Part shown: positions 5,325 to 61,048 of the stretch, one piece after another
Layout: the number at the start of each line of letters is the position of its first letter
How positions within the stretch are numbered: position 1 is the first letter of the stretch
Assembly: GCF_016899935.1 (NCBI RefSeq)
Contig: NZ_JACJJK010000003.1
Span: forward strand, 62,001-126,000
Reading direction: 5' to 3'
DNA from: Olsenella uli
GTDB lineage: Bacteria; Actinomycetota; Coriobacteriia; Coriobacteriales; Atopobiaceae
Length of the DNA stretch: 64,000 nucleotides
The notes under the pieces: model-generated
Database searches by the model: none
The model's input: only the letters and a program-made list of their open reading frames with translations
Told to the model about the DNA's origin: nothing
Made by a program: the position numbers and the translations under genes

Positions 5325-7577
5325 ATGCAGGCAAACAGGGGAGGGATGCGTCCGGCGGAGCTCGTGTTCGCCGCGCGGATCGCGCGCTGGACGGTGCGCA
5401 CGCGGTGGCTGGGGCTGCTCGTGGCCGCGGTTGCGGCGTGCCTTGCGGCGTCGCTCGAGGCACCGGGCTTCTCCACGCTCGTGGGCGGTACGTACCACCC
5501 GGACACCATGGCGATGAACGCGGAGGTCGCCGGCCAGGTGTCCCAGGAGTGGCTGGACGCGCCCTCGCAGAGCGCCGCGGAGGAGCGCGCGAAGGAGGAC
5601 GCGCGGCTGCGGGCGGCGGCGTATGCGGACTACCTCGCCGCCGCGGACGACCGTGGTCGCATAGGGGCGGCGATCAGGCTGATGGAGCTCTCGCTCGCCA
5701 ATCCGCCGGTAGGGCAGGTGCGCGCCGAGGCGGAGCTCGAGCTCGCGTTCTACCGGCGGCTGCTTGAGACGGACGACCCGCGCCTCTACGGGAGCCTGGG
5801 CGAGATGCCGGCGCTCGTGCTGCTGGCCAGCCGCTGGCAGGACCACCTGTACGTCCCGCTCCTGAGCGACACGCTGGCCGCCCTCGCGCCGCCTGCGGGC
5901 GCCACGACCGGCGGCGACACCGGGCGCGAGGCCTACGTGCTCGCCCTCGCCCCCATGATCACGGCCATTGCGTGCGCGGCGCGCTGGCGTGCGGGCGAGC
6001 GCCTGCTCGGAGTCGTTCCCGTGGCCCGCGGCCTTGCCTCGGCGCTCGGCGTGGGCGCGTCCACCGTCGCTGGCTGGCTCGCGGTGGCGCTGACGCAGCT
6101 GCCGCTCGCCCTCGTGGCCGCGGTGCGCAACGGCGTGGGCGACCCGTCCTATCCGGTGGCCTTCTTTCGCGAGGGGGAACCGGTGCTCACCACCGCCGGC
6201 GCCGCGCTCGCGTCCATGGCGGCGTTCTACCTGCTCGTGGCGCTCTTCCTCGCGCTGGTGGCGGAGCTCGGCCTCGTGCTGACCCGCCGCCTGGCTCCCG
6301 GTGTGGCCGCGTGCGCGCTGCTCGCCCTCGTGCCGCTCGTGCCGGGCCATTACGGAAGTCTCTCGCCGCTGGGCGACCTGCTGCCCTGGCTGCCGAGCAC
6401 CTACCTCGACGTCCCGCGCGTCGTGGGAGGTTGGGGCTACCAGGTGAACATGCTGAACAGCCCCGTCCCGGACGCACGCGTCAACCCCGCCACGGGCGCC
6501 GCGGTGCTCGGGGCGTGCGCGGCGGCGCTCGTGACGGTGCTGGCCGTGGCCCTTCTCGTCCGTAACCGGAGCGCTGGCCCACACGGCGGGGGAGCGCCTG
6601 GCGAGAAGAACGCGCACCCGGGGCCCCGCGCCCGCGGCGCCCACTTCGCAGGTGGCCGCAGCCGCGCGGCGGAGCACAAGGGCACCGGGCTTCTCGGCGT
6701 CTGCCTGCTCGTCCTGCGGCGCGGGCCGCTTCTGCCGTGCCTTGCGGCGCTGACGCTGGCGGCGTGCCTCGCGCCGGGCGCGCTGGGCTTCAGGACCGGG
6801 ACGGACTCCTTCACGCGAGAGGCGTACGGGACCCGCTACCAGCAGCGCAGCCGAGCGCTGGGCGCGGACGGCGCGGTCCTCACCGCCGCCGAGGAGGAAG
6901 AGCTCGCGTGGCTGCGGGAGGTGGCCTTTGCGCCCGACGACGCCGCGTTCGCCTGGGCGGCGGCCGCCTTCGAGGCATGGCGGGCCGAGCGCGTCCGGGC
7001 GGGGGAGCTGGGGGACGGTGGCCCCCGTGAAGAGGGGGAGGCCGAGGCGCGCGCTGCGTACTTCTCGGCCCTGGCGTCCTCGGGCGACCCGCGCGTGCTG
7101 CTGAGTGCGGCCGAGCTGGCGCCGCTCTCGTACCTGGGATTTGTCTCGGTCCTGGCGCCTCCCGCCGTCATGGCCGCGCCGACCGTCGCCGCGGGTGCGG
7201 TGCTCGTCCGGCGCGTCTGCCGCGGGCTGCTCGCGCAGGTGCCGGCGTCCGGGCGCCGCCGCTTCTACGCGGTCGCGGCCGCCGTGGCACTCCCGGGCGC
7301 GGCTGTCTGCGGCGGCGCCTGGGCTGCCGCCGTGCTTGCGGCGTTCGTCCGCAACGGCACGGGTGACCCGGCCTACCCCTGCCTCTTCGTTCGCGGCGGC
7401 GCGCTCGTGGTCACGAGTTCATTCGATGCCGCCTGTGCCTACGTGCTCTGGAGCCTCGCCCTCTGCCTGGTCTGCTCGCTCGTCTGCGCACTTCTCGCCG
7501 TATTTCTCTGCCGCGACACCCGTCCTGCCCGCGTCCGCGGCGTCCTTGGAAAGGAGCCCCGTCATGCTCAGCGCTGA
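5325..7577 (+). CDS. ABC-type permease with two fused modules (copies B and C)
   Basis: 750 residues; start ATG 5325 after GAAGGGAG. Residues 1-415 repeat the plan of the upstream permease: N-terminal helix, extracytoplasmic helical region containing a GEMPALVLLAS segment (upstream gene: GEMPAVVYLAT), then helices with VRNGVGDPSYPV. After a Pro/Gly-rich linker (about 420-450) a third module begins (LRRGPLLPCLAALTL) and again carries an RNG-GD-YP motif, VRNGTGDPAYPC, near residue 680. So the gene is an in-frame fusion of two permease modules. The ATG of the ATPase gene overlaps its 3' end by 14 bp, indicating coupling. Export of a peptide or antimicrobial is a guess only. Confidence 0.7.
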   Translation: MQANRGGMRPAELVFAARIARWTVRTRWLGLLVAAVAACLAASLEAPGFSTLVGGTYHPDTMAMNAEVAGQVSQEWLDAPSQSAAEERAKEDARLRAAAYADYLAAADDRGRIGAAIRLMELSLANPPVGQVRAEAELELAFYRRLLETDDPRLYGSLGEMPALVLLASRWQDHLYVPLLSDTLAALAPPAGATTGGDTGREAYVLALAPMITAIACAARWRAGERLLGVVPVARGLASALGVGASTVAGWLAVALTQLPLALVAAVRNGVGDPSYPVAFFREGEPVLTTAGAALASMAAFYLLVALFLALVAELGLVLTRRLAPGVAACALLALVPLVPGHYGSLSPLGDLLPWLPSTYLDVPRVVGGWGYQVNMLNSPVPDARVNPATGAAVLGACAAALVTVLAVALLVRNRSAGPHGGGAPGEKNAHPGPRARGAHFAGGRSRAAEHKGTGLLGVCLLVLRRGPLLPCLAALTLAACLAPGALGFRTGTDSFTREAYGTRYQQRSRALGADGAVLTAAEEEELAWLREVAFAPDDAAFAWAAAAFEAWRAERVRAGELGDGGPREEGEAEARAAYFSALASSGDPRVLLSAAELAPLSYLGFVSVLAPPAVMAAPTVAAGAVLVRRVCRGLLAQVPASGRRRFYAVAAAVALPGAAVCGGAWAAAVLAAFVRNGTGDPAYPCLFVRGGALVVTSSFDAACAYVLWSLALCLVCSLVCALLAVFLCRDTRPARVRGVLGKEPRHAQR

Positions 7578-8235
7578 GAGCCTCACCCTCGGCTACGGAA
7601 GCCGCGTTCTACTCGACCACGTGTCCCTGGAGGTGCGCCCTGGCGTGATCACGGGCCTCATTGCGCCCAACGGGTACGGCAAGACCACGCTGCTGCGCGC
7701 CCTTGCGGGTCTGGGTACGGGCCGCGTGCGCGGCACGGTGCGCGTGGACGGCATCGCGCCGCGCGACACCCCGGCGCTACGCCGTGTGGTCTTCTACGCG
7801 CCCGGCGACGCCTCGCTGCTGTATCCCTCGCTCACGGTGCGCGAGCACCTCCGCGCCGCCGCCGACCTCTGGGGCTCGGGGATGGACGTGGACGCCCTGG
7901 CGCGCCGCTGCGGCGTGGACGGCTTTGCGGGAAAGCGCGTGCGGGCGCTCTCGCAGGGCATGAAGCAGCAGGTCACGCTGGCCGTAGCCTATCTCACGGG
8001 CGCGCGCTACCTGCTGCTGGACGAGCCCATGAACGCGCTCGACCCCACGAACGTGGGCATCAATACGCGGCTCCTGCGCGAGCTTGCGCGCGCGGGTCGC
8101 GGCGCGGTGCTGAGCTCGCACATCCTGGCCAACGTGGACGAGGTGGCCGACGAGGTGATCTTCATCAAGGACCGTCGCCTGCTCCTGGGCCACGGCGATT
8201 CGGCCGAGCTCTACCGGCGGCTCTACGAGACCTGA
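7564..8235 (+). CDS. ABC transporter ATP-binding protein
   Basis: 223 residues; ATG at 7564 overlaps the permease stop and follows AAGGAG. Walker A is IAPNGYGKTT (the usual first Gly is Ala and the residue before GKT is Tyr, mildly unusual), Q-loop region around residue 78, signature LSQGMKQQ instead of LSGGQ, Walker B YLLLDEP, H-loop LSSHI. Short single-domain ATPases of this kind energise ABC-2 type permeases, here the A/B/C modules upstream. Last gene of the operon; 78 bp downstream the second 97-bp element starts. Confidence 0.9.
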   Translation: MLSAESLTLGYGSRVLLDHVSLEVRPGVITGLIAPNGYGKTTLLRALAGLGTGRVRGTVRVDGIAPRDTPALRRVVFYAPGDASLLYPSLTVREHLRAAADLWGSGMDVDALARRCGVDGFAGKRVRALSQGMKQQVTLAVAYLTGARYLLLDEPMNALDPTNVGINTRLLRELARAGRGAVLSSHILANVDEVADEVIFIKDRRLLLGHGDSAELYRRLYET

Positions 8236-8312
8236 CGCATCCCCGCCGTCGTCCGGCCGCGCCGTCCTTCTCGCCCGTGCCCAGCTCCCGCGTCCGCCCC
8301 TCCCTTCCGGGT

Positions 8313-8409
8313 GTGTACGAAGTTGCAAAATTAATACGGTACCTAGCGATCAAAGATCCGCAGGTAGACGCCTTGCCGAGAAGAACATCAGACTTGCAAC
8401 TTCGTACAC
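8313..8409 (+). repeat. 97-bp dispersed element, copy 2
   Basis: Inverted relative to copy 1 at 3575-3671. Both ends carry the 16-bp inverted repeat GTGTACGAAGTTGCAA, one end flanked by CCGG. The two copies bracket the permease-ATPase operon exactly (3833-8235). It lies in the 311-bp non-coding gap between the ATPase gene and prfC. Confidence 0.8.
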
Positions 8410-10160: not shown

Positions 10161-10202
10161 CGTGTTCTTCTCGCCCGCCCGCTGCGGCCAACCTCGCCGA
10201 GA

Positions 10203-10258: not shown

Positions 10259-10297
10259 TTTCGGCGGTTTTGGCGAGAAGAACGCGTGGGTTCCGGA

Positions 10298-13287: not shown

Positions 13288-13708
13288 CTTCAACAGCAGG
13301 AGACTGCTCTTTGACACCAACGTTCTTCTCGACGCGGTTTGCAGAGGGCGACCGCAGTCGGCGGAGGCGTGCGAGGTGCTTCGCCGGTGCAACGGTGGGG
13401 GAGACCTGGGGCTCGTTGTCGTTGGGTCGCTCAAGGATGCGTGTTACGTGTTGCAGCGGCAATATGGCGAGGCTCAGGCGAGAAGGGCGATTGAGTGGCT
13501 GCGCGAGCTGCTCGTGATAGCGCCGCTCGGGGCAGAGGAGTGCGAGCTCTCGCTGGCCTCCGGGGAGCCGGACTTCGAGGACGGGCTCATCCGCGCCTGC
13601 GCCGAGCTCAACGACGTCGACGTCATCCTCACGCGCGACGCGGGCGTCTTCAAGCGCTCCAAGGTCCGTGCCATGACCTGCGCGGAGTACCTGGAGCTGT
13701 TTGGGTAG
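13280..13708 (+). CDS. PIN-domain ribonuclease toxin
   Basis: 142 residues starting MRDFNSRR, overlapping the antitoxin stop (ATGCGTGA), which supports this start over 13268. The PIN signature is visible: LLFDTNVLLD with the first acidic residue, a glutamate in QSAEACEVL, the acidic pair in EPDFEDGLI and DVILTRD near residue 118. PIN toxins are Mg-dependent RNases that cut tRNA or rRNA when the antitoxin is degraded. Forms a two-gene TA operon with the RelB-like protein upstream. Confidence 0.85.
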   Translation: MRDFNSRRLLFDTNVLLDAVCRGRPQSAEACEVLRRCNGGGDLGLVVVGSLKDACYVLQRQYGEAQARRAIEWLRELLVIAPLGAEECELSLASGEPDFEDGLIRACAELNDVDVILTRDAGVFKRSKVRAMTCAEYLELFG

Positions 13709-13828: not shown

Positions 13829-14815
13829 ATGTCACCAAACGCGCCGCACGCCATGTCGCACACGCAGACCGCACCATCACAAGACGTCGTCCGCGTCACC
13901 GGGCTCGTCAAGCGCTATCACGAGCTCGTCGCGCTCGACCACCTGGACCTCGCCGTGCTCAAGGGTGAGATTTTCGGCCTGCTGGGCCCCAACGGGTCGG
14001 GCAAGACCACAGCCATCAACTGCATCCTCCAGCTGCTCTCCTACGACCGCGGCACCATCGAGCTCTTCGGCGAGCCGATGGCGCCGAGCCGCTACGACCT
14101 CAAGGCGCGCGTGGGCGTGGTCCCGCAGCAGGTGGCCGTCTTCGACGAGCTCACCGTGCGCGAGAACGTGGACGCCTTCTGTGCGCTCTACGTGCGCGAC
14201 CGTCGTCGGCGCCGCCAGCTCGTGGACGAGGCGATCGACTTCGTGGGCCTCGGCGACTACGTCCGCTTCCGCCCGGCCAAGCTCTCCGGCGGCCTGGCGC
14301 GGCGGCTCAACATCGCCTGCGGCATCGCGCACCACCCCGAGCTCATCTTCTTCGACGAGCCCACCGTCGCCGTGGACCCGCAGAGCCGCGCGAGCATCCT
14401 GGACGGCATCTGCCGCCTGCGCGACGAGGGCGCCACGGTGGTCTACACGAGCCACTACATGGAGGAGGTCGAGCAGATCTGCGGTCGCATCATGATCTGC
14501 GACCGCGGCCGCGCCGTGGCGCAGGGTACCGCGGACGAGCTCAAGCGCATGATCAGCCTCGGCGAGAAGATCACGGTCGAGACGGACGCGCTGCCCGAGG
14601 GCACGCTCGAGCGCCTGCGCGGCCTCTCGCACGTGCTCTCGGCGGACTACGCGGACGGCACGCTGCGTCTGACCTGCGAGGCGAGCGCGCACAACCTCAC
14701 CGACGCGCTCTCCGTCCTCACCGCCGCCGGCGTGCGTCTGGGCCGCGTGTGGTCCGAGCCGCCCACCCTGAACGACGTCTTCCTCGAGCTCTGCGGCCGT
14801 GAGCTGCGCGACTAA
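13829..14815 (+). CDS. ABC transporter ATP-binding protein
   Basis: 328 residues. Walker A LLGPNGSGKTT, signature LSGGLARRL, Walker B LIFFDEP followed by VAVDPQSR, H-loop YTSHYMEE. The C-terminal 80 residues match the accessory region of drug-type ABC-2 ATPases (DrrA/CcmA-like). Start could be 13829 or 13853. First gene of a six-gene operon with two ABC-2 permeases, a two-component system and an MFS pump, all separated by at most 50 bp or overlapping. Likely powers export of a toxic compound sensed by the kinase. Confidence 0.93.
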   Translation: MSPNAPHAMSHTQTAPSQDVVRVTGLVKRYHELVALDHLDLAVLKGEIFGLLGPNGSGKTTAINCILQLLSYDRGTIELFGEPMAPSRYDLKARVGVVPQQVAVFDELTVRENVDAFCALYVRDRRRRRQLVDEAIDFVGLGDYVRFRPAKLSGGLARRLNIACGIAHHPELIFFDEPTVAVDPQSRASILDGICRLRDEGATVVYTSHYMEEVEQICGRIMICDRGRAVAQGTADELKRMISLGEKITVETDALPEGTLERLRGLSHVLSADYADGTLRLTCEASAHNLTDALSVLTAAGVRLGRVWSEPPTLNDVFLELCGRELRD

Positions 14816-14826: not shown

Positions 14827-16029
14827 ATGGGAACCTCGTTTCTGGTGAGCATCAAGAGCCTCGTGCGCACGCCCTCGGTGATCGTGTGGGTGCTGGCGTT
14901 TCCCCTCATCATGTCGGCCGTCTTCCTCTTCATGTTCTCCGGCATGCGCACGGACGGCGCGGTTGATCCGGTCCCGGTTGCGCTCGTGGCGCCGGCGGGC
15001 GAGAAGAACGACGCGCCTGCGGGCTCCTTCGAGCAGGTCACGGCCACCCTTGCGGAGCCGGGGGAGGACCAGCTGCTCGACCTGCGGCGCGTCGGGACCG
15101 CCGCCGAGGCCGCGGACCTTCTCGCCAGCGGCGAGGTTGACGGCTACTTTGAGCTCGCGCCCGACGGCACGCCCGCGCTCACGGTGGGCTCGGCCTACAC
15201 GCTTTCCAGCGCGGACGGCGCGACGGCCGTCAACCGCACGATCCTGGAGACCGTCGCCAGCTCCTACGTGCAGTCGCGCGCTCTCTTGGAGGAGGTGGCG
15301 CGGCGCGACCCGGCGGCGCTCGCGGAGCCCGCCGCCGTCGCGGACGCCCTGGGCATCCAGACTGCCGTGGAGCAGACGCAGATCACGCACGCCCGGCCGG
15401 AGGAGCTCGTGCGCTACTACTACGCCCTGCTCGGCATGTCCGCGCTCATGGCGACGCAGGCGGGCATGCTCGCCGTGGCACAGGCCCAGCCCGGCGTCTC
15501 CGCGCTCGGGGCACGCCGGGCGGTCTCGGGCACCTCGCGCCTGCGGCAGCTCGCCGGCTGCGTGCTCGGCGCGTGGGCGGTCTCGACCGTGGCGCTGACG
15601 CTGGCCTTTGCGTTCCTGCGCCTCGTGGTGGGCGTGGACTTTGGCGGCCGAGAAGGACTTGCCCTCGTGGCCGTCGCCGCCTGCGCGCTGCTCGCCACGG
15701 CGCTCGGTGCGTGCGTGGGCGCGCTGCCGATCTCTGCCGGCATCTCCGCGCGCTCGGGCATCCTCACGGCGCTGACCTGCGTGCTCTCGCTCTTCGCGGG
15801 CCTCTACGGCTCGTCGGCGATGGAGCTCGCGGACAACCTCGCCCGCGCGCTGCCGTGGACGAGCTGGGTGAACCCGACCAAGCTCGTGTGCGACACGTTC
15901 TATGCGCTCTACTACTACACCTCGCTCGCGCCGTTTGCCGCGCGCATCGCCGCCTGCATGGCGGGCGCGCTCGCCCTTCTCGCCGTGGCTGGCGCCATCT
16001 TTAGGAGGCAGCGCTATGAGCACCTTTAG
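14827..16029 (+). CDS. ABC-2 type permease subunit 1
   Basis: 400 residues. One N-terminal membrane helix (residues 17-38, VIVWVLAFPLIMSAVFLFMF), a large extracytoplasmic domain of about 150 residues, then five to six helices from about residue 195, typical of ABC2_membrane_3 exporters. Follows the ATPase by 11 bp and overlaps the next permease by 14 bp, so the two permeases probably form a heterodimer. The loop carries a GEKNDAP insertion encoded by the over-represented word GGCGAGAAGAACG. Confidence 0.88.
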   Translation: MGTSFLVSIKSLVRTPSVIVWVLAFPLIMSAVFLFMFSGMRTDGAVDPVPVALVAPAGEKNDAPAGSFEQVTATLAEPGEDQLLDLRRVGTAAEAADLLASGEVDGYFELAPDGTPALTVGSAYTLSSADGATAVNRTILETVASSYVQSRALLEEVARRDPAALAEPAAVADALGIQTAVEQTQITHARPEELVRYYYALLGMSALMATQAGMLAVAQAQPGVSALGARRAVSGTSRLRQLAGCVLGAWAVSTVALTLAFAFLRLVVGVDFGGREGLALVAVAACALLATALGACVGALPISAGISARSGILTALTCVLSLFAGLYGSSAMELADNLARALPWTSWVNPTKLVCDTFYALYYYTSLAPFAARIAACMAGALALLAVAGAIFRRQRYEHL

Positions 16030-17221
16030 GACCGCCCTGCGCGTGGTTGCCGGGCATCCCATCTACCTCGCGCTCTACGTGGCGTTTCTCTCCCTCATGG
16101 GCGTGCTCGTGGTGGGCGACATGGGCGTGGCCACCGCAGGCGAGAAGGACGGCTACGCCGCCTACGAGGCGCGCGTCGCCGTGGTCGATCGGGACGGCAC
16201 GGCGCTCTCGGGCGCGCTTGCGGCATGGGCGGGCGAGGCCTTCGAGCTCGTGGAGGTTGCGGACGAGCCGCTCGCGCTGCAGGACGCGGTGGCCACGGGC
16301 CGGGTGGACTGCCTGGTGGTGCTGCCGGAGGGCTTCGAGCGGGAGCTGCTTGCCGCTGCGCGATCGGGCGACGAGGTGCCGGCGCTCGAGGTGGCCTACG
16401 GGCAGGACGTGCAGGCGGGCGCCCTCGCGGCACAGGCGACGTCGCGCTGGGTCTCGCTCGCGGCGAGCGCGGCGGCCCTCGAGCCACAGGCGTCGGCGGC
16501 CGAGGTCGCGGGTCTCGTGCAGGTCGGCGCGACGCGGCGGGCCGAGGTGAGCGTGCGCGCGTCCGAGGGCGCGCTCGGTGGCGCGGACCGGCTTGCCACG
16601 TACCTGAACTTCTCGACGTATTCCGTCATGAGCTCCATCGTGGTGGTGGCCGGGGTCTCGCTCTCGGCGTTCCAGCAGCCGGAGCGCCGACGCCGCCTGG
16701 CGGCGGGGCCCGTCTCGCCCGCTCGACTCTCGGCGGGACAGGTCGCGGCGTGCCTCGTGCTCGTGGTGGGGGTGTGGGCGTGGACCTGCGCCGTGGCCCT
16801 CGCGGCCTGCGGGGGTGCCCTTGCGGGGACGGACCCGGCGCTCGTGGCCTGCGCGCTCGGGAGCGTGCTGCCCTTCGCCCTGGTGCCGCTCGCGCTGGCG
16901 TTCCTGCTCGCGCAGCTGGGCCTCAGCGAGGACGCGGTCAACGCGTGCGGCAACATCGGCGCCATGGTGCTCTCGTTTCTCGGCGGGGCGTGGGTGCCGC
17001 TCTCCATGCTGCCCGACGCCGTGCAGGCGGCGGCGCGCCTCTCGCCCTCGTATTGGGTGAGCCAGGCGGTCTCGTCGGCGCTGCACGCCGAGGCGCTCAC
17101 GCCCGATTTGGCTGCCGAGCTGGGGACCTGCCTGGGGATTGTCCTGCTCTTCGCGGTGACGCTCTTTGCCCTGGGACTCGCGCTCGGCCGCGCCCGGCGT
17201 CGCGCTGCCGGCGCGGCGTGA
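16016..17221 (+). CDS. ABC-2 type permease subunit 2
   Basis: 401 residues, ATG at 16016 behind AGGAGGCAGCGCT. Same plan as the preceding gene: an N-terminal helix (ALYVAFLSLMGVLVVGDM), an extracytoplasmic domain with a GFERELLAAA-type segment seen in YhgE/ABC-2 exporters, and six C-terminal helices including a WVPLSMLPDAVQAAARLSPSYWV loop typical of ABC-2 membrane proteins. Paralogous partner of the upstream permease. Ends 47 bp before the kinase gene. Confidence 0.87.
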   Translation: MSTFRTALRVVAGHPIYLALYVAFLSLMGVLVVGDMGVATAGEKDGYAAYEARVAVVDRDGTALSGALAAWAGEAFELVEVADEPLALQDAVATGRVDCLVVLPEGFERELLAAARSGDEVPALEVAYGQDVQAGALAAQATSRWVSLAASAAALEPQASAAEVAGLVQVGATRRAEVSVRASEGALGGADRLATYLNFSTYSVMSSIVVVAGVSLSAFQQPERRRRLAAGPVSPARLSAGQVAACLVLVVGVWAWTCAVALAACGGALAGTDPALVACALGSVLPFALVPLALAFLLAQLGLSEDAVNACGNIGAMVLSFLGGAWVPLSMLPDAVQAAARLSPSYWVSQAVSSALHAEALTPDLAAELGTCLGIVLLFAVTLFALGLALGRARRRAAGAA

Positions 17222-17268: not shown

Positions 17269-18390
17269 ATGAAGAGACTTGCCGACAAGCTCGTGGTGTT
17301 CGTCGTCTGCCTGCCCGCGCTCGTCGCGGCGTCGGGCGGGACGGCCGGCGCCGGTCTGGTGGTGGCGCTGTTGGCGGCGGTGGCCCTGGCGGCCCTCTGC
17401 GAGCTCGCCCGCGACCGGGCGGTCCTCGTGCCGCCGCTTGCCCTCTGCGCCCTCGCGTGCGTCCTGCCCGAGGCAGTGGCCCTGCTCGGCGTGGCCACCT
17501 ACGACCTGTGCCGCGTTGCCGTTGGGGAGCGAGGGTGCGCGCGAGCCGTGCCCGCCGCCGTGCTCGTGCCGATCGCCTGGGGCGCGGCGCGGGGCGTGCC
17601 GGACGGGCTCGCGGTTCTTCTCGCCGTGATGGGGGTCGTCGTGGGAGGCTGGCTCGGCCTGCGCGTCGGGGCATCCGAGCTGCGGCGCCGTGACGCCCTC
17701 CGCATACGGGACGACCTCGCGGCCGCGCGCCTCGCCCTGGCCCAGAAGAACCGTGAGCTCCTGGACGCCCAGGACTACGAGGTGCGTCTGGCCACACTCT
17801 CCGAGCGAGCGCGCATCGCCCGCGAGATTCACGACAACGTGGGTCACCTGCTCACGCGCGCCGTCGTGCAGGCGGAGGCGTACCGCGTGGCGCACGACGG
17901 CGAGCCGGTCGCCCGGGACCTCGCCGCCGTGGCGGGCACCGTGCGCGAGGCGCTGGACGAGGTGCGCGCGAGCGTCCACGACCTGCGGGACGACGCGGCG
18001 GACCTCTCGGTGCAGGTGCGCGCCGTCGTGGAGCGCGCCTGCGAGGGGACGGAGCTCGCGCCTGCGGTGCGCGTGGAGGCAGGTGAGGCGCCGGCCGCCG
18101 TGGCGAGCTGCCTCACGGCGGTCGTGCGCGAGGCCGTCTCCAACGTGCTGCGCCACTCGGACGCGCGCCACGTGAGCGTGGAACTGGTGGAGCACCCGGG
18201 ACTCTGGCGACTCACGGTGGTTGATGACGGGACGGCGGCCGGGCCCGGAGACGGCTCCGGCATGGGGCTCGCCTCGATGGAGGAGCGCGTGCGGGCGCTC
18301 GGCGGGACGTTTCGCGCCGGCCCCGGCGAGCAGGGCGGATGGACGGTCTTTGCGAGCGTGCCGCGCGCCGGCGGAGAGGGGAGCGCATGA
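17269..18390 (+). CDS. Two-component sensor histidine kinase (NarL/DesK class)
   Basis: 373 residues. About five membrane helices fill residues 8-135 with almost no extracytoplasmic loop, suggesting membrane-intrinsic sensing of the transported compound or envelope stress. The dimerisation-phosphotransfer helix has ERARIAREIHDNVGH with the phosphorylated His. The ATPase domain has VREAVSNVLRHSDA (N box) and DDGTAAGPGDGSGMGL (G boxes). The stop overlaps the regulator start (ATGA). Genetic linkage implies it controls this transporter operon. Confidence 0.93.
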   Translation: MKRLADKLVVFVVCLPALVAASGGTAGAGLVVALLAAVALAALCELARDRAVLVPPLALCALACVLPEAVALLGVATYDLCRVAVGERGCARAVPAAVLVPIAWGAARGVPDGLAVLLAVMGVVVGGWLGLRVGASELRRRDALRIRDDLAAARLALAQKNRELLDAQDYEVRLATLSERARIAREIHDNVGHLLTRAVVQAEAYRVAHDGEPVARDLAAVAGTVREALDEVRASVHDLRDDAADLSVQVRAVVERACEGTELAPAVRVEAGEAPAAVASCLTAVVREAVSNVLRHSDARHVSVELVEHPGLWRLTVVDDGTAAGPGDGSGMGLASMEERVRALGGTFRAGPGEQGGWTVFASVPRAGGEGSA

Positions 18391-19031: not shown

Positions 19032-20275
19032 ACGACGAGAACCACTGGAAGCTCAAGCTCGCCTGCGTGTGGGGCGGCGAGCTCATCTCCGTGCTCACGA
19101 GCTCCATCCTGCAGATGGGCTTTGTCTGGCACATCACGCTCACGACAAACTCGGCGAGCATGCTCTCGCTGGCCTCGCTCGCTGGCTTCCTGCCGCTGGC
19201 GCTCTTTGGCACCTTCGCGGGAACCATCGTTGACCGCCTGCCGCTCAAGGTCTCGCTCGTCGGCGCGGACCTCTTCATCGCGGCGGTGAGCGCCGTCGTG
19301 GCGGCGGTCTCGCTCATGGGCGCGCTTCCCGTATGGGTGGTCATGGTCGCGCTCTTCGTGCGGGCCATCGGCAGCTCCCTGCACACGCCCGCCTTCCAGG
19401 CGCTCACGCCGCACCTGGCGCCGGCCGAGCACCTCACGCGTCTCGCGGGCGTGACGCAGGCCGTCCAGTCCGGCGGCTACATCCTCGGCACGGCGATCGC
19501 GGCGGTGATCTACCCGCTCTGGGGGCTCACGGCGATGATCGCGCTCGACGTGGTCGGGGCGCTTGTGGCCTCGGTGGCGGTGCTGGCGGCGCGGCTCGAC
19601 GTGGGCGGCTCGCGCGGTACGTCGGGCGAGCGGGGCCTCGGCATCGCGGCCCAGGCGCGCGCCCTCGCCGCAGAGACCGCCGACGGCTACCGCGTCCTGC
19701 GCGGCTATCGGGGCCTCTTTGCGCTCCTGTGGTGCGGCTTCGTCTTTACGCTGGTCTTCTCGCCCATCTCGGCGCTCTTCCCGCTCATGACGCTCGATCA
19801 CTTCAGCGGCACCACGGGTGACGCGGCCACGGCGGAGATCGTGTTCTCGGTGGGTATGATCGTGGGCTCGGCGCTGCTCACGGCGACGGGCGGCTTCAAG
19901 AACCGTGCGTACACCGTCTGCTTTGCCACGGCGCTCTACGGCTTTGCGACGCTGGTTGCGGGTTGCGCAGGGCCGAACGCCGGCGGCATGCAGCTCTTCT
20001 TTGTGATGAGCTTCCTCATGGGTCTGAGCTCGCCGTTCTATTCCGGTCCGCAGACAGCCCTCATGCAGGAGAAGATCCCGCCCGAGTACCTGGGGCGCGT
20101 CTTCGGCCTCTACGGGGCAATCATGTCTTGGGCGATGCCGCTTGGGCTGGCGTTCTCGTCGCTCTTCGCGGATGCCGTGGGCGCGCCGGCGTGGTTCTTC
20201 GGCGCGGGCGTCGCGATGGTCATTCTCGCCTGCGTGACCTGGGCGATTCCCGCCATCCGAAACGTGGAGCGGTAA
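19028..20275 (+). CDS. Major facilitator superfamily efflux protein
   Basis: 415 residues with about twelve membrane helices and no signal peptide. The loop between helices 2 and 3 has GTIVDRLPLK, the MFS motif A region (G-x-x-x-D-R). The middle loop (about 190-215) is cytoplasmic. It belongs with MFS_3/enterobactin-exporter-like drug or siderophore exporters. Starts in an ATGA overlap with the response regulator, so it is the last gene of the operon. A palindromic hairpin follows 16 bp after the stop. Confidence 0.9.
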   Translation: MNDENHWKLKLACVWGGELISVLTSSILQMGFVWHITLTTNSASMLSLASLAGFLPLALFGTFAGTIVDRLPLKVSLVGADLFIAAVSAVVAAVSLMGALPVWVVMVALFVRAIGSSLHTPAFQALTPHLAPAEHLTRLAGVTQAVQSGGYILGTAIAAVIYPLWGLTAMIALDVVGALVASVAVLAARLDVGGSRGTSGERGLGIAAQARALAAETADGYRVLRGYRGLFALLWCGFVFTLVFSPISALFPLMTLDHFSGTTGDAATAEIVFSVGMIVGSALLTATGGFKNRAYTVCFATALYGFATLVAGCAGPNAGGMQLFFVMSFLMGLSSPFYSGPQTALMQEKIPPEYLGRVFGLYGAIMSWAMPLGLAFSSLFADAVGAPAWFFGAGVAMVILACVTWAIPAIRNVER

Positions 20276-21720: not shown

Positions 21721-21832
21721 TCATATTGATGGTGATGGGTAGTTTTCTCGCCATATCTTTTTGTACTTCTCGCTTGTAGACTGAGAGAAACACTTGTCAG
21801 GCGTACGACGAACGGGAGTCCAAGGAATGAAG

Positions 21833-37168: not shown

Positions 37169-37194
37169 GACCGCTCTTCTCGGCTGGCTGGCTC

Positions 37195-37264: not shown

Positions 37265-37307
37265 CGGGCGGCCCGGGCGGCGGGCGAGAAGAACGTCCCG
37301 TCGCAGG

Positions 37308-46982: not shown

Positions 46983-46983
46983 G

Positions 46984-48173: not shown

Positions 48174-50114
48174 CTAGCGCCCGCAGAGCGCCTGGCGGAT
48201 GAGCTGCGCAAAGGCCGCCGCGCCCGCGTCCGTGAGGTGGATGCCGTCATCGACCAGGTACTCGCTGTGCCCCTCGCTGGCGCCGCACCAGTCGATGATG
48301 CCCACGTTGTCGTTCTCGGCGGCAAAGCGGCGCAGGACCTCGTTGTTCGCGTCCTGCAGCGGGTAGGGGCTTCGGATCGTGACAAAGTACACGGGCTTGC
48401 CGCCCACGGCGTCGATCAGCGCCTGCACCGTCGACTCGTCGCGGATGAGGCTGTTGCCGCCCAGCGCAAAGACTACGGCCTCGGGGTCAAAGCCGCCCGC
48501 GACGTCCGCCGCGTAGACGTCCTGCCCCTCGTAGAGCTGGCGGCTCACGGCGCCGTCGACGAGCGCCTCGGGCAGCGCGGCCTCGAGGGCGGGCGTGGCG
48601 CCTGCGGTCACGGAGTCGCCGATGACGAGGACGCGCGCGTCGCAGGAGCCCGTCGCCTCGTCGTAGCTCCACGACTCCCAGGGGAGGTTGTCGGGCACCT
48701 TCTCGGCGACGGGCCCCGCCGGCTCGTCGGTGTCCCCCTCGTCGCCGGCGCCCCCCTCGGCGTCCGTCACGACCGGCGTCCCCGTCCCCGCCGCGCCCGG
48801 CGAGGGGGCCAGCTCGGGCCGCAGCGCCACGGCGCGCTCGTCCGCGACCGCCTGCCAGTCGACGGGGGCAAAGGCGAGCGCCCCCACCGCGCAGGCACCG
48901 AGCGCCGCGAGGCAGACGGCCGCCGCCGCAGGCGCCGTGCCCGGCTCGCTCCTCCGACCCCGTCCCAGGAGACGCGCGCACGGCGCCTCGACCAGACGGT
49001 AGAACACCTCGGCCACGAGCAGGACCGCCGCGACCTGCAGCGCCTGCTCCCACCAGGCGACGGCCGTGGTGCGCGTGGCGGGGTTCATGAGGATGAGCAT
49101 CGGGTAGTGCACGAGGTAGACCGAGAAGGACCTCGTGCCGAGCCAGCGCAGCGGGGCCACGGCGAGCGCCCGTCCGAGCGGGCACCCGCTCACCTGGACG
49201 CAGGCGAGCAGCGCCGCCGTGACGAGGGCGAAGGCGAGGTAGCCGCCGCGATACATGAGCGCGCTCTCGCCGTCGGCGAGCACGAACCCCGCCACGAGCG
49301 CTGCGAGGCAGACGAGCCCGACGGCCGTGGCCGCCCCGCGCGCCGCCGCGCCCGCCCGGCGTCCCGCGCCCTCGTCGCGCGCGGCGGGCAGCGCCAGGGC
49401 GACGAGCGCGCCGGCCACGAGCTCGGCGGCGCGGGCGTCCGTGCCGTAGTAGACGCGGGCTGTGTCGCCCTGCGGGTTAAAGAGCAGCGCCATGATGACG
49501 GCCGAGCCCACCAGCACGCCCACGGCGACCGAGAGGGGGCGGATACTCCGCGCCCGCGCCGCCGCCATGAGCACGAGCGGCCAGACCACGTAGAACTGCA
49601 TGACCACGCCGAGGTACCACAGGTGCGTGAGCGGCGAGGGGAGTCCGGCCGCCTGGAAGTAGGAGACCTGCCGGAAGACGTACGACCAGTTGCCGATAAA
49701 GAGCGCCGCCGGCAGCGCGTCCGCCTGCACCTTGGGCAGCAGGCTCGGGGTCACGAGGTAGGTGGCGAGCGCGGCGAGCCCGACGGTCACGAGCACCGGC
49801 GGCAGCAGGCGGGCGACGCGTCGCGCCAGGTAGCGCCCGTAGCCGAACGTCCCGCGCCCGAGCGCACCCATCACCGAGCGCGTGGCGAGAAACCCCGTGA
49901 TGACGAGAAACACCGTGACGCCAAGAAACCCGCCCCGCAGCACGGAGGGGCGCAGGTGGTAGAGAACCACGCCGGCGATCGCGAGCGCGCGCAGCCCGTC
50001 CACGGCGTCGATGCGCCGCCCCGTCCCGGCGGGCTCGGCGGGGGTCCTGAGGTGCGCGGCCCTTCTCGGCGTGGGGCATCTGGCGGTCTGGGGCGCGGGC
50101 GAGCGGTCGGTCAT
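48174..50114 (-). CDS. OatA-like acyltransferase 3 with SGNH domain
   Basis: 646 residues, Shine-Dalgarno GAGGAGGACCC. Residues 35-390 form a ten- to eleven-helix acyltransferase-3 domain (IDAVDGLRALAIAGVVLYHL with the catalytic His, GFLGVTVFLVITGF, RFSVYLVHYP-like RSFSVYLVHYPML). Residues 470-646 are an extracellular SGNH esterase domain with VLVIGDSVTAGA, LGGNS and DDGIHLTDAG. This is the OatA layout that O-acetylates peptidoglycan or another surface glycan, giving lysozyme resistance. Divergent from an esterase gene. Confidence 0.92.
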   Translation of the reverse strand: MTDRSPAPQTARCPTPRRAAHLRTPAEPAGTGRRIDAVDGLRALAIAGVVLYHLRPSVLRGGFLGVTVFLVITGFLATRSVMGALGRGTFGYGRYLARRVARLLPPVLVTVGLAALATYLVTPSLLPKVQADALPAALFIGNWSYVFRQVSYFQAAGLPSPLTHLWYLGVVMQFYVVWPLVLMAAARARSIRPLSVAVGVLVGSAVIMALLFNPQGDTARVYYGTDARAAELVAGALVALALPAARDEGAGRRAGAAARGAATAVGLVCLAALVAGFVLADGESALMYRGGYLAFALVTAALLACVQVSGCPLGRALAVAPLRWLGTRSFSVYLVHYPMLILMNPATRTTAVAWWEQALQVAAVLLVAEVFYRLVEAPCARLLGRGRRSEPGTAPAAAAVCLAALGACAVGALAFAPVDWQAVADERAVALRPELAPSPGAAGTGTPVVTDAEGGAGDEGDTDEPAGPVAEKVPDNLPWESWSYDEATGSCDARVLVIGDSVTAGATPALEAALPEALVDGAVSRQLYEGQDVYAADVAGGFDPEAVVFALGGNSLIRDESTVQALIDAVGGKPVYFVTIRSPYPLQDANNEVLRRFAAENDNVGIIDWCGASEGHSEYLVDDGIHLTDAGAAAFAQLIRQALCGR

Positions 50115-50197: not shown

Positions 50198-51019
50198 ATG
50201 CGCGTCGAGAAGATCGAGCTGCCGGGGTCCGGCCACGGGGCCAAGGTCGCCACGCTCACGGCCTACGCGCAGGACAACGTGGCCGACCAGGCCGCGCGCC
50301 GACGTCCCGCCGCCGTGGTCTGCCCGGGCGGCGGCTACGCGTTCTGCTCGGACCGCGAGGCGGAGCCGGTGGCGCTCGCCCTTCTCGCCCGCGGGCTTCA
50401 GGCCTTCGTCCTGGACTACACCGTGCTCGATGACGCCGTGCCGGGACCGCTTCTGCCCGCGCCGCAGCTGGACCTCGCCCATGCGGTCGCGACGGTCCGC
50501 GCGCACGCGGACGCATGGCACGTGGACGAGAAGAACCTCGGGCTTCTCGGCTGCTCGGCAGGCGGGCACCTCTGTGCCACGTACACGGCGCTCTCACGGG
50601 ACGAGGCGTTTCTCGCCCGCGCCGGCGTGAGCGCGGACGCGGCGCGCGTGGCCTGGCAGATCCTCTGCTACCCGGTCATCGACCTCGGCGCCGGCTGGCC
50701 GGGCGATGCCGCCTACGCGGCGCGCCTCTGCCCGGCGGACGGGCCGCTCGCCCGCGCCCAGGACCTGGTGAGCGCCGCCACGCCGCCGACCTTCCTCTGG
50801 CACACGGCCACGGACGCCACGGTGCCGGTGAGAAACGCCTACCTCTACGCGGCCGCGCTCGCCACAGCGGGCGTGGACCACGAGTGCCATGCCTTCCACG
50901 AGGGGCGCCACGGCCTCTCGCTGGCCACGGAGCAGACGGCCCATCGCCCCGGCGACGCGCTCCCGCACGTGGCGCGCTGGCTGGACCTCGCCGTCGAGTG
51001 GCTGCGCGAGCTGTCCTGA
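50198..51019 (+). CDS. Alpha/beta hydrolase, acetyl-esterase type
   Basis: 273 residues, ATG after GGAGGAGAAC. CPGGGYAFCSDREAEPVA is the HGGG-like oxyanion loop of BD-FAE/acetyl xylan esterases, GLLGCSAGGHLCATY holds the nucleophile Ser near residue 131, LWHTATDATVPVRN the Asp, and EGRHGLSLAT the His. No signal peptide, so it acts in the cytoplasm, perhaps deacetylating imported sugars. Single gene; repeats lie downstream. Confidence 0.88.
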   Translation: MRVEKIELPGSGHGAKVATLTAYAQDNVADQAARRRPAAVVCPGGGYAFCSDREAEPVALALLARGLQAFVLDYTVLDDAVPGPLLPAPQLDLAHAVATVRAHADAWHVDEKNLGLLGCSAGGHLCATYTALSRDEAFLARAGVSADAARVAWQILCYPVIDLGAGWPGDAAYAARLCPADGPLARAQDLVSAATPPTFLWHTATDATVPVRNAYLYAAALATAGVDHECHAFHEGRHGLSLATEQTAHRPGDALPHVARWLDLAVEWLRELS

Positions 51020-52796: not shown

Positions 52797-53468
52797 ATGA
52801 GGACTATGTCACAGACCGAGCAGAACCCGGGCGAGAAGAACCGGCGGGCCGATAAGGACGGCGAGCGCGTGGACCGCCGCGTGCGCCGGAGCCGCCGCGC
52901 CATCGTCGCGGCGTTTGACCGGCTGATCATGGACGAGCCGCTCGAGCGCATCACCGTGAGCCGGATCGCGCGTGAGGCGGACGTGGACCGCAAGACGTTC
53001 TACCAGCACTTCGGCTCCGTGGACGGGTTGCTCGACGCCATCGCGGAGGACGTGGTGACGGAGCTTCTCGACGAGGTGGAGCGCACGGCGGGCCCGCGCG
53101 CGGACGACTCGGACGCGGGGAGGCCGCTGCACGCCTTCTTTGCCGCGCTCGCCGAGTACCTGAGCGAGAACGTCGTGCTGCAGCAGCGCTACTGCGAGCA
53201 CGTACCCTCCGAGCTGCTCATCGACCACCTGACGCGCCCGCTCATGCGTCAGGTGGTCGACCGGGGACTTGTGAGCGGCGAGCTGTCGGACGAGGACCTC
53301 GAGCTGCTGCTCGCCTTTGGGCTCGGCGGGCTCTTCTCGCTCTACCGGTGGTGGCTGCTCTCGGACCGCGCGCTGCCGCTGGAGGAGCTGACGCGCCGCG
53401 CCTGCGAGCTGCTCGGGGAGGGCGTGACGCCGCTTCTGGACCGTCGGGGCGAGGGGCCCGCTACTTGA
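52797..53468 (+). CDS. TetR-family transcriptional regulator
   Basis: 223 residues; an in-frame ATG at 52806 is an alternative. The HTH reads ERITVSRIAREADVDRKTFYQHFGSVDGLLDAI. Upstream 13 residues (TEQNPGEKNRRADKDG) are disordered and contain a GEKN stretch encoded by the over-represented GGCGAGAAG word. The C-terminal domain resembles TetR_C_33-like forms (LLLAFGLGGLFSLYRWWLL). Probably represses the divergent radical SAM gene; effector unknown. Overlaps the uspA-like gene tail-to-tail by 8 bp. Confidence 0.9.
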   Translation: MRTMSQTEQNPGEKNRRADKDGERVDRRVRRSRRAIVAAFDRLIMDEPLERITVSRIAREADVDRKTFYQHFGSVDGLLDAIAEDVVTELLDEVERTAGPRADDSDAGRPLHAFFAALAEYLSENVVLQQRYCEHVPSELLIDHLTRPLMRQVVDRGLVSGELSDEDLELLLAFGLGGLFSLYRWWLLSDRALPLEELTRRACELLGEGVTPLLDRRGEGPAT

Positions 53469-53934: not shown

Positions 53935-54025
53935 GGTTGCCTCCCTCGTCTGAGACGTGCCGTTTACCTGCGTTATACCCCTCACTCGGCGAGAAGCGCG
54001 CCCGCTCGGCGAGCGTTGCCGAAAA

Positions 54026-54071: not shown

Positions 54072-54911
54072 ATGCGGGTCACGGTGCTGATGGAAAACGG
54101 TACGCCCTCGAGCCGGCTCGCCGCGCGGCACGGGCTCAGCCTGTGGCTGGAGCTCGCGGACGGCCGGCGCGTCCTCTTTGACATGGGGCCGGACGAGGCG
54201 TTTCTCGCCAACGCGCGGACGCTGGGCGTGGACGTGACCACGGCGGACGCGGCGGTGCTCTCCCACGGGCACTACGACCACGGCGGCGGGTTGCCCGCGT
54301 TTCTCGCCGCGTGCTCGGACGCCGGGCGCGACGTGCCCGTCTACGTGCGCGAGCACGCCTTCGAGCCGCACGTCTCCGGCACGCTCGAGCGCCATCACGC
54401 CATCGGGCTGGACCCGGCGCTCGCCGCCGACCCGCGCGTGGTCACGGTGGGCGAGAAGCACGACCTGGGCAGCGGGCTCATGCTCTTCTCGACCGCGCGG
54501 CGCGCCCATCCCGTCGCCCGCTCCAACGCGCGCCTGCTCATGCGGGGCGCGGACGGCGCGCTCGTGCCTGACACGTTCACGCACGAACAGAGCCTGCTCG
54601 TGGAGGAGGACGGCCGGCACGTCCTGGTCTCCGGCTGCTCGCACGGCGGCATCCTCAATCTCATGGACGCTGCGGAGGAGCTCGCGGGCGCCCCGCTCGA
54701 CGCGGTGGTGGCCGGCTTCCACCTCATGGACCCGAGCGGCGGCACGGTCGAGGACGCCCGGCTCACGCGCGCGCTCGCCCGGGAGCTGGCCGTCCGGCCC
54801 GCGCGCTACCTCACGTGCCACTGCACCGGCACCGACGCCTTTGCCCTGCTGCGCGACGAGCTCGGCGAGCGCGTGCGCTATCTCCACGTCGGCAGCCGCG
54901 CGGACGTGTAA
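54072..54911 (+). CDS. Metallo-beta-lactamase fold hydrolase
   Basis: 279 residues; ATG 54072 behind GGAGGGGTGCA. Metal ligands in LSHGHYDHGGGLPAF, then VSGCSHGGILNLM and the C-terminal YLTCHCTGTDAF. GHYDHGGG plus CSHGG and CHCTG are typical of the subgroup annotated as 7,8-dihydropterin-6-methyl-4-(beta-D-ribofuranosyl)aminobenzene-5'-phosphate synthase-like hydrolases. Substrate in bacteria is not settled. Followed 56 bp later by a surface-type protein gene. Confidence 0.88.
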   Translation: MRVTVLMENGTPSSRLAARHGLSLWLELADGRRVLFDMGPDEAFLANARTLGVDVTTADAAVLSHGHYDHGGGLPAFLAACSDAGRDVPVYVREHAFEPHVSGTLERHHAIGLDPALAADPRVVTVGEKHDLGSGLMLFSTARRAHPVARSNARLLMRGADGALVPDTFTHEQSLLVEEDGRHVLVSGCSHGGILNLMDAAEELAGAPLDAVVAGFHLMDPSGGTVEDARLTRALARELAVRPARYLTCHCTGTDAFALLRDELGERVRYLHVGSRADV

Positions 54912-56485: not shown

Positions 56486-56499
56486 GGGGCGAGAAGACC

Positions 56500-58249: not shown

Positions 58250-58294
58250 AGAGTCGGTAAGGTCACGCATGGGGCCGCTGGGCGAGAAGTACCT

Positions 58295-58464: not shown

Positions 58465-59106
58465 CTACCGTGCGTAGTGCCCGAGGCACATCCCTATGAA
58501 ATCGCGCATCTCGGCGCGGAAGTTGGTCTCGGGACGCTCGATCTCAAGCCGCGAGAGCGCCTCCGCGATGAGCGGGTTGCTCCAGCAGGAGCTGACGAGG
58601 CCCGTGGCGTGGTAATAGACGGCCAGCAGCAGGGGCTCCACGCGCTCCGGCGCGATTCCGGCGACCTGCGGCAGGCGCTCGCGCATCTCGGCCACGCGAT
58701 CGTAGTAGCCGCGCTTGAAGACCATGAGGCGCTCGACGGTGACGTTGGTCTCCACGATGGTCGTGAGCAGGTCGCCCAGGCGGAAGTACTCCTGGTGCGC
58801 GTCGGCGACGTCGGCCCAGGCGTCGGCGACGGCGGCCGCGTCGGGCGTGCGGCCCTCGTCCAGCGCGGCGAGAAGGGCATCGAAGTAGGCGTTGCACTCG
58901 TCCCCGGTGAGCAGGAGGAAGATCTCCTCCTTGGTGGTCACGTACTTGTAGAGGTTGGCGCGCGACCAGCCGAGCTCCTCGGCGATCGTGGTGAGCGTGA
59001 TCTCGTGGTAGGGGCGCTCGGCGAACTGCCGGCGCACGGCGCCCTTGATCTCGTCGAGGCGCTGCCCCTTCTGCTCGGGGCTTCTCGCCCTGATGAACTC
59101 GGCCAT
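58465..59106 (-). CDS. TetR-family regulator divergent from alcohol dehydrogenase
   Basis: 213 residues from MAEFIRARSPEQKGQR; GGAGGATCC precedes this ATG, so the upstream 21 codons are not used. HTH: HEITLTTIAEELGWSRANLYKYVTTKEEIF. The C-terminal domain has the QEYFRLGDLLTTIVETNVTVERLMVFKRGYY pattern of TetR_C regulators. Divergent from the iron alcohol dehydrogenase with an operator between them; it most likely represses both, responding to an aldehyde, alcohol or redox signal (inference). Confidence 0.92.
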   Translation of the reverse strand: MAEFIRARSPEQKGQRLDEIKGAVRRQFAERPYHEITLTTIAEELGWSRANLYKYVTTKEEIFLLLTGDECNAYFDALLAALDEGRTPDAAAVADAWADVADAHQEYFRLGDLLTTIVETNVTVERLMVFKRGYYDRVAEMRERLPQVAGIAPERVEPLLLAVYYHATGLVSSCWSNPLIAEALSRLEIERPETNFRAEMRDFIGMCLGHYAR

Positions 59107-59169
59107 GGATCCTCCGTACGGTTGCTGGGGGAAGTATACCGCAGGCGGATGCAGAATAAGTGAAGCCAT

Positions 59170-59210: not shown

Positions 59211-59238
59211 GAGGCCACGCCACAGCGAAAGGAGACCC

Positions 59239-60420: not shown

Positions 60421-60440
60421 ATTGGGGACAGTCCCCAATT
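60420..60440. repeat. Palindrome with GGGGACAGTCCCC core
   Basis: Arms AATTGGGGAC (60420-60429) and GTCCCCAATT (60431-60440) around a single A. The first base is the last base of the alcohol dehydrogenase stop codon. It separates the dehydrogenase from the flavin reductase gene. Confidence 0.6.
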
Positions 60441-60472
60441 CGCACAAAAGTTTGATATTAAAGAGAATTGAC

Positions 60473-61048
60473 GTGAAGAAGAACATCGGGTCCAAGCCCG
60501 CCCTCTACCCCGTGCCCGTGATCGTGGTGGGTGCCATGAACGGCGACGAGCCAACCTGGACGCTCGTGGCACACACAGGCATCCCGAGCCACAGCAAGAT
60601 TATGGTGAGCCTCGCCGGCGCACACTTCATCAACGGCTGCATCAAGCAGACCGGCGTGCTCTCCGTGAACGTGGTCGACGAGTCCTGGCTCGACCACGCG
60701 GACCTCTGCGGCAGCGTGAGTGGTGCGCGCCAGAGCAAGGCCGACGTCTTCGCCTGGACGGCGGGCGAGGCCGGCGCCCCGCTCATCGACGACGCCAAGC
60801 TCTCCATGGAGTGCCGCGTGGAGGACGTCTACGAGATTGACCACTTCGAGAACTTCATCTGCTCGATCGCGGGCACCTACGCGGACGACTCCATCGTGAC
60901 CGAGGACGGCAAGGTGAACGTGGCCGCCCTGCGCCCCGTGCTCTTTGAGATGCCCACCTACACCTACCTCGCCACGGGCGAGAAGATCGCCGACTGCCTG
61001 AGCTTCGCCCGCACGCGTAAGGCGCCGGCCGAGGTGACGCGCAGCTAG
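60473..61048 (+). CDS. Flavin reductase family protein (FMN-binding split barrel)
   Basis: 191 residues starting at GTG 60473 (KKNIGSKPALYPVPVIVVGAM); an AAGAGA lies eight to ten bases ahead. The conserved PALYPVPVIVVGAM and THTGIPSHSKIMVSLA-like blocks mark the FMN-binding split-barrel flavoproteins. Fold-related to the protein at 38028. The pair dehydrogenase-flavin reductase may share a transcript despite the intervening palindrome. It is the last gene before the abrupt compositional change near 61060. Confidence 0.87.
   Translation: MKKNIGSKPALYPVPVIVVGAMNGDEPTWTLVAHTGIPSHSKIMVSLAGAHFINGCIKQTGVLSVNVVDESWLDHADLCGSVSGARQSKADVFAWTAGEAGAPLIDDAKLSMECRVEDVYEIDHFENFICSIAGTYADDSIVTEDGKVNVAALRPVLFEMPTYTYLATGEKIADCLSFARTRKAPAEVTRS

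Follow-up and report, generated by a model that had tools for sequence, protein, structure and literature searches.

A short over-represented word in genomes of Atopobiaceae: a probable DNA uptake sequence

The 64,000-nucleotide stretch of Olsenella uli DNA analysed here (contig NZ_JACJJK010000003.1, positions 62,001 to 126,000; hereafter the window) is densely populated with a short word, GGCGAGAAG-nn-C(G), which is non-palindromic and has ten fixed positions over 12 bases. We give roughly two chances in three to the reading that GGCGAGAAGnnC(G) is a DNA uptake sequence (DUS): the signature left in the genome is that of a DUS, and from it we infer a preferential uptake of word-bearing DNA. 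A DUS had been named first among the candidates of an original prediction made from the window's letters, and it was favoured over two others on that list, a Chi-like recombination site and a chromosome-segregation motif, because the word shows no polarity, is in excess between genes, occurs in inverted pairs and is accompanied by homologues of competence genes.

GGCGAGAAG is the commonest 9-mer of the window, with 45 copies (28 on the plus and 17 on the minus strand), in agreement with the dozens of copies in both orientations originally reported. When these copies were lined up, the twelfth base was C in 44 of 45, often with G after it, which answers the earlier suggestion to look for a flanking extension. 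About 23% of the source genome (2.13 Mb) was read as sequence and the remainder was searched for patterns. In a 464 kb sample, made of the window and the first 200 kb of both contig 49 and contig 60, the twelfth base was C in 234 of 243 copies of GGCGAGAAG, following two free bases and with G preferred next, and columns outside the word carried at most 0.23 bits each. Position 2 also allows C and, less often, T or A. Genome-wide, GGCGAGAAGNNCG occurred 619 times, against 14 for its reversed control and 3.15 predicted by base composition. The 13-mer GGCGAGAAGAACG had been located at 6600, 10272, 14998, 37283 and 41308, all of them correct and on the plus strand, with near-exact forms as described at 10164 (-), 17614 (-), 46908 (+) and 52830 (+). 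Its genome-wide count of 162 (80 + 82), against none for the reversed control and about 0.08 from base composition, bears out the statement that chance predicts essentially none. Order-5 Markov z-scores mainly picked out palindromic repeats of a different kind, so the word was not judged by them.

Departures from the word were mostly scarce. Among antisense and outside-gene sites of the sample, single-substitution forms numbered 0 to 15 each against 147 perfect copies, the better-tolerated changes being C (78), T (32) or A (27) at position 2, C (40) at position 7 and A (32) at position 9. Per substitution, the perfect word outnumbered one-mismatch forms in the source genome and in three relatives, G194, G199 and G042.

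The simplest explanation of such an excess would be a by-product of codon usage and of a common GEK peptide. GEK was indeed the most enriched tripeptide by z in the sample (87 vs 37), and the GEK frame was the largest class of the 243 copies of GGCGAGAAG, with 83; the remaining ones fell into two antisense frames (69 and 18), another sense frame (8), a third antisense frame (1) and DNA outside called genes (64). A synonymous codon shuffle gave 62 copies in the GEK frame but only 4.4 and 5.2 in the two antisense frames, and none in the other sense and third antisense frames. C at position 12 was present in 60 of 62 sites outside genes and in 18 of 18 sites of one antisense frame. The original prediction that the word encodes GEKN-type inserts in proteins covers 19 of the window's 45 9-mers, which lie in the sense GEK frame; of the others, 16 are antisense, one is in another sense frame and nine are outside called genes. 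High GC was not the cause, since GGCGAGAAG was also the top 9-mer in the genes of a sample of G042, at 52.6% GC (47 vs 6.4).

Gaps between genes gave the same picture. Genes were called with a simple codon-bias caller, so that calls are approximate and some sites listed as outside genes may sit in missed ones (e.g. window 2014-5346); for this reason counts were limited to gaps of 20-400 bp. In these gaps GGCGAGAAGnnC was found 47 times in the source genome against 0.5 from a third-order Markov model of gaps, and 30 vs 0.6, 29 vs 0.5 and 7 vs 0.1 times in G194, G199 and G042, respectively. The density of sites in short gaps was about three times that within genes. In all four genomes sites occupied several gene frames and were denser in non-coding DNA, which was not the case for a further relative, G169. 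Counts near the codon-usage expectation, or a single amino-acid motif behind the enrichment, were thus not what the shuffle and the gap counts returned. Codon usage and the GEK peptide were ruled out on these grounds as the source of the word; they retain next to no probability, and it is most plausibly the DNA word that produces the GEK excess of the source genome.

Conservation pointed in the same direction. The main antisense frame of the word requires the codon CTT, which accounts for 723 of the sample's 13120 leucine codons (5.5%) and yet was used in 103 of 204 cases where CTC-G[GC]C follows. Comparison with three close relatives (G086, G345 and G289), summed so that one window site can count up to three times, found CTT codons conserved in 22 of 27 cases at the word against 33 of 105 elsewhere, and third codon positions in 193 of 211 against 15900 of 20954. 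Selection therefore acts on the DNA word itself in the source genome, as originally proposed, on the evidence of the antisense excess over the shuffle, the short-gap excess, the scarce mismatches and the retention of CTT.

The word has no preferred strand. Neighbouring sites 0.3-20 kb apart lay on the same strand in 217 of 437 cases (P 0.9; samples of four genomes). Apparent strand runs in G042 were dismissed as an artefact, all 63 forward matches having been counted there but not all reverse ones. In the two complete genomes evenly sampled for this count, the gene-rich strand held 96 of 217 sites in G194 (P 0.10) and 96 of 167 in G199 (P 0.06), in opposite directions. These statistics contradict a polar segregation word of KOPS/SRS type, the segregation candidate of the original prediction. 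Words of this type point towards the terminus and the B. subtilis SRS is GAGAAGGG, which the core of the word resembles; strands alternating as if at random leave this explanation a vanishing probability.

The strongest rival to a DUS is a Chi-type site, at which an AddAB helicase-nuclease would halt degradation and start recombination. Chi sites are likewise over-represented words, and an AddAB-like pair is encoded on contig 91, where an AddB-like open frame of 1085 aa and an AddA-like one of 1551 aa lie near each other; these calls were based on partial sequences with weak family scores, far below full-length cut-offs. The lack of polarity speaks against Chi, although the orientation bias of Chi with replication is not universal. 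Known Chi sites are 5-8 bases long, below the ten fixed bases over 12 found here, and neither the threefold density in short gaps nor inverted pairs play a part in the Chi model. The excess of about 196 (619 vs 3.15) also compares with 5.7 for Chi in E. coli (excerpt of PMC1939737), a ratio inflated here by the longer word. A Chi function appears unlikely on these grounds.

Two words can also face each other with their 3' ends, as GCGAGAAG-N(2-14)-CTTCTCGC; such inverted pairs were present in 8 of 8 genomes searched, with 6-48 each, and absent from the reversed control. Some genomes showed preferred spans: among the 32 pairs listed for G216 out of its 48, 14 measured 18 bp, 15 measured 22 bp and 3 had other lengths, 9 of 15 pairs in G042 measured 18 bp and 6 of 14 in G199 measured 24 bp. 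The two 12-mers of an 18-bp pair share the central GnnC. Close direct repeats were also found, partly perhaps as repetitive coding sequence in G194. Preferred spacings are what would be expected if the word were the site of an abundant DNA-binding protein, either a nucleoid organiser or a dimeric regulator, with single words as half-sites and inverted pairs as full sites. The position of sites relative to genes is also in line with this proposal: of 92 outside-gene sites in the source genome sample (G or C at position 2), 35 had a stop codon no more than 30 bp away and 9 a start codon at such a distance. Most sites, however, are single, intragenic and on either strand, the 14 pairs of G205 are spread over eight lengths, and DUS are themselves associated with inverted pairs, including overlapping dyads in Simonsiella (excerpt of PMC3630211). 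A DNA-binding protein site can be viewed as an improbable explanation. Published traits of uptake sequences comprise a non-palindromic word, occurrence in and out of genes, a non-coding excess, no orientation bias and about 10% inverted repeats (excerpt of PMC1939737), and the word agrees with them in kind.

If the word is a DUS, ComEA, ComEC and a competence pilus of Tad/Flp type would bring in extracellular DNA; some component of this machine that binds DNA, probably a minor pilin or ComEA, would prefer the word, and word-bearing fragments would be taken up and recombined more often. The word would then build up wherever the sequence is free to change, biasing uptake to kin DNA. The search for competence genes and AddAB, suggested with the original prediction, returned by homology adjacent comEA-like and comEC-like genes (L172, 5997-8898), DprA, a tad-like locus (L171) with CpaB-, CpaE- and TadA-like proteins, and the AddAB-like pair. 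Models PF03772, PF02481 and the ComEA helix-hairpin-helix domain scored above cut-offs in the source genome. Frames for TadB, TadC and Flp gave no match to NCBIfam models and were named by position and look only. A PF00437 search of the source genome returned a single ATPase, of Tad type, and gave no sign of a type IVa pilus. Judging from their translations, frames resembling these also flank the ATPase in G169, G194, G199 and G042. In G194 a further cluster (L177, C1 1932000-1950000) was noticed that has a PF00437 ATPase and, by look, small pilin-like frames, the source genome having no second PF00437 match.

The distribution of the word among relatives differed between genera. The best-matching named protein to one window protein (L015) came from Thermophilibacter provencensis (93%), whose genus belongs to Atopobiaceae, Coriobacteriia, Actinomycetota, and on this basis the source genome is regarded as Thermophilibacter-like. 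In a count over 396 genomes of the class, 25 of the 26 from the source genus, source genome included, had between 49 and 191 copies of the exact 13-mer, the remaining one being G169. In a search of 246 genomes, GGCGAGAAGNNCG was counted 125-702 times in 13 of 13 genomes of this genus, 125 being the count of G169. High counts were also obtained for other genera, namely g8 (422-577 in 3 of 3 genomes), g18 (384 in one genome), g12 (202-249 in 5 of 5), g10 (98 and 187), g3 (64-142 in 5 of 5) and g44, from another family of the same order (182-216 in 3 of 3). Intermediate or mixed values were those of g9 (44 and 183), g17 (86 and 25), g20 (78), g22 (68) and g4 (60 and 44), and the remaining genera had about 0-54 copies vs 0-16 for the control. 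The word is thus strong in several genera of Atopobiaceae and in one outside the family. The low background of motif-poor genomes is probably the GEK frame, because 5 of 5 sites in a motif-poor Collinsella sample (G140) sit there, and for this background the codon and peptide explanation would hold. As for another dialect, no comparable top word was found among 8- and 9-mers of small samples of Collinsella G140 (240 kb) and of g14 G229 (200 kb). One locus labelled Collinsella tanakaei strain ET10 (L009) was 90% identical in one protein, against 63% for the other four Collinsella loci, and its label may be wrong.

Several observations weigh against a DUS. Full-length NCBIfam models scored below their curated cut-offs in the source genome, with 163.6 of 190 bits for ComEC, 112.9 of 152 for ComEA, 301.9 of 373 for TadA and 55.7 of 71 for CpaB, the E-values of these matches being 5e-15 or better. 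Machinery does not track the word either, because ComEC (379 of 396 genomes of the class), DprA (9 of 9) and a PF00437 ATPase (39 of 39 genomes chosen across motif-rich and motif-poor genera) occur in motif-poor relatives too. Competence machinery was consequently rejected as a predictor of the word, no correlation having appeared across the genomes examined; the parts list is compatible with transformation and does not predict the word. Within the source genus itself, G169 carries comEA-comEC, a tad-like locus and dprA, yet has few sites (6 of the 13-mer). The source genome has only 6 inverted pairs. Low-GC3 genes of the source genome are not site-poor; in G194 and G199 the raw density was slightly or unevenly lower in such genes and the observed/expected ratio was not. 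Conservation outside genes barely exceeds that of the surroundings (103 of 121 vs 3919 of 4801, three relatives). Finally, among the open-access papers listed in our literature searches none dealt, by title, with natural transformation in Atopobiaceae, nor with this word or an uptake sequence in this group. Regarding G169, a 400 kb sample held 47 sites in genes and only 2 in 28 kb of gaps, and the variant with C at position 2 (49) exceeded the perfect word (39). Persistence in genes with near-absence from gaps suggests decay after loss of the driving process, possibly a recent loss of uptake specificity.

The sites of the window are given below with their strand, 'C variant' standing for C at position 2 and conservation referring to the aligned relatives G086, G289 and G345.

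1149..1160, +: C variant GCCGAGAAGnnC, antisense in a called gene
1619..1630, +: GGCGAGAAGnnC, antisense in a called gene
2673..2684, -: C variant, outside called genes, long uncalled stretch
4714..4725, -: C variant, outside called genes, long uncalled stretch
5018..5029, -: GGCGAGAAGnnC, outside called genes, long uncalled stretch
5283..5294, +: C variant, outside called genes
6600..6612, +: exact 13-mer GGCGAGAAGAACG, sense GEKN frame
6687..6698, -: C variant, antisense
7058..7069, -: C variant, antisense
7488..7499, -: GGCGAGAAGnnC, antisense
8264..8275, -: GGCGAGAAGGAC, outside called genes
8375..8386, +: C variant, outside called genes
10164..10175, -: GGCGAGAAGAAC, 3 bp past the end of a called gene
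10272..10284, +: exact 13-mer in a gap between called genes
13477..13488, +: site conserved in G086 and G289 though the nn bases change (GG to AT)
14561..14572, +: site, sense frame
14998..15010, +: exact 13-mer, sense frame
15115..15126, -: site, antisense
15647..15658, +: C variant, other sense frame
15973..15984, -: site, antisense
16139..16150, +: site, sense frame
17614..17625, -: GGCGAGAAGAAC, antisense
19753..19764, -: site, antisense; identical in G086 and G289
20754..20765, +: antisense site, conserved in G086 and G289
23705..23716, +: site, sense frame, UvrD/PD-(D/E)XK gene
26093..26104, -: C variant, sense frame
27997..28008, +: site, sense frame
31673..31684, +: site, sense frame
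32372..32383, +: C variant, sense frame
34535..34546, +: site, sense frame; one change in G289
36296..36307, +: site, sense frame; is GGCGAGAAGAACG in G086 and G289
37173..37184, -: C variant, 4 bp past the end of a called gene
37283..37295, +: exact 13-mer, between convergent called genes
37683..37694, -: sense-frame site, conserved in G086 and altered in G289
37770..37781, -: site, sense frame; kept in G086 and G289
38265..38276, +: sense-frame site, conserved in G086 and G289
38373..38384, +: site, sense frame; changed in both aligned relatives
38747..38758, -: sense-frame site, conserved in G086 and altered in G289
39362..39373, +: site, antisense; kept in G086 and G289
41308..41320, +: exact 13-mer, sense frame; not conserved in the portion that aligns with G086
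41356..41367, -: C variant, antisense; changed in G086
41473..41484, -: antisense site with a single change in G086
42615..42626, -: C variant, outside called genes; conserved in all 3 relatives
43128..43139, +: C variant, sense frame; identical in 3 of 3 relatives
43791..43802, -: antisense site, conserved in G086 and G345, with a single change in G289
44935..44946, +: antisense site, conserved in G289, a C variant in G345 and altered in G086
45472..45483, +: site, antisense; 12-mer identical in 3 of 3 relatives
45577..45588, -: sense-frame site, conserved in all 3 relatives
46036..46047, +: antisense site, conserved in G345 and G289, with a single change in G086
46911..46922, +: C variant, antisense; conserved in all 3 relatives, as GGC in G289
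50059..50070, -: C variant, outside called genes; not kept in G086
50378..50389, -: antisense site, conserved in G345 and G289 and altered in G086
50540..50551, -: C variant, antisense; conserved in G086 and altered in G345 and G289
52830..52841, +: GGCGAGAAGAAC, sense frame; kept in G086 and G345
53988..53999, +: site, outside called genes; conserved only in G086
54450..54461, +: sense-frame site, conserved in G289, with a single change in G345, and altered in G086
56488..56499, +: site in a gap between called genes, altered in G086 and G345
58281..58292, +: site, outside called genes; identical in G086
58867..58878, +: antisense site, conserved in G086 and G289, with a single change in G345
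59078..59089, -: site, other sense frame; conserved only in G345
60977..60988, +: sense-frame site, the last of the window

Single sites turn over, several of them being changed in one or two relatives (e.g. 38373, 50059, 53988). The word had also been described as absent from a foreign segment after 61060; this absence was not significant (0 seen vs 2.8 expected between 61060 and 64000, P about 0.06, Poisson), and at three other places in the window even longer stretches are free of sites. Together with the low-GC3 genes, which are not poor in sites, this gave no support in the source genome to the idea that foreign DNA lacks the word. The gene holding the site at 23705 (21794-25111) encodes a UvrD-type helicase fused to a PD-(D/E)XK nuclease domain and adjoins a 3-methyladenine glycosylase gene; its product has relatives across Coriobacteriia and Saccharibacteria and is separate from the AddAB-like pair of contig 91. 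The palindromic repeats are represented in the window by REP-like palindromes at 45930, 54027 and 60424, with centres GGGGACTGTCCCC, GGGGTCAGACCCC and GGGGACAGTCCCC and differing arms; ranked by Markov z, the 10- to 13-mers of the 464 kb sample are headed by words of this sort. A conserved core of about 45 bases with GCCGAGAAGnnC was observed in G000 on C49 near 3123, 68358 and 112589 and on C60 near 40107, and in L101 near 14872. Its arms vary between copies and are nearly complementary to each other in 4 of 5 (by eye), as if the element had entered the loops of different palindromes.

The DUS reading can be set beside known systems. Likeness to the DUS of Neisseriaceae extends to a short non-palindromic over-represented word in and between genes, inverted pairs, overlapping dyads and dialects among relatives (excerpt of PMC3630211). 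Word and phylum differ, the present one belonging to Actinomycetota with ten fixed bases around a two-base gap, as does the machinery, a single Tad-type PF00437 ATPase with no type IVa pilus seen. The uptake signal sequence (USS) of Pasteurellaceae shares a nine-base core, a non-coding excess and the lack of orientation bias (excerpt of PMC1939737); it is unrelated in sequence and has a 29-base extended consensus, compared with at most 0.23 bits per column outside the present word. Chi is alike in being an over-represented short word beside an encoded AddAB-like pair, and unlike in being shorter than the present word, which lacks polarity, is in excess between genes and forms inverted pairs. 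A further case, for the machinery, is the actinobacterium Micrococcus luteus, in which tad genes are required for natural transformation (excerpt of PMC4322843) and comEA and comEC are present (excerpt of PMC6370729), like the tad-like genes, comEA and comEC of the source genome (L171, L172). No mention of sequence-specific uptake was found in the excerpts available on this species, and a role of tad genes in Atopobiaceae is putative.

On balance it seems probable that this would be a DUS in Gram-positive Actinomycetota, read by a Tad/Flp-type competence pilus and evolved independently of the systems of Neisseria and Pasteurellaceae. Sequence-specific DNA uptake is, to our knowledge, established in two proteobacterial families, the methylation-based DNA selection of Campylobacter being a different case. 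If the reading is correct, self-recognition in transformation would have evolved again, with a single membrane and a different pilus, and natural competence would be predictable from sequence alone. Word-tagged DNA might then offer a simple route to genetic tools for genera that have none. The genomes described here would also belong to a group of gut and oral bacteria whose natural transformability has gone unrecognised, in which the strength of the word shifts from genus to genus and at least one lineage (G169) may be losing it.

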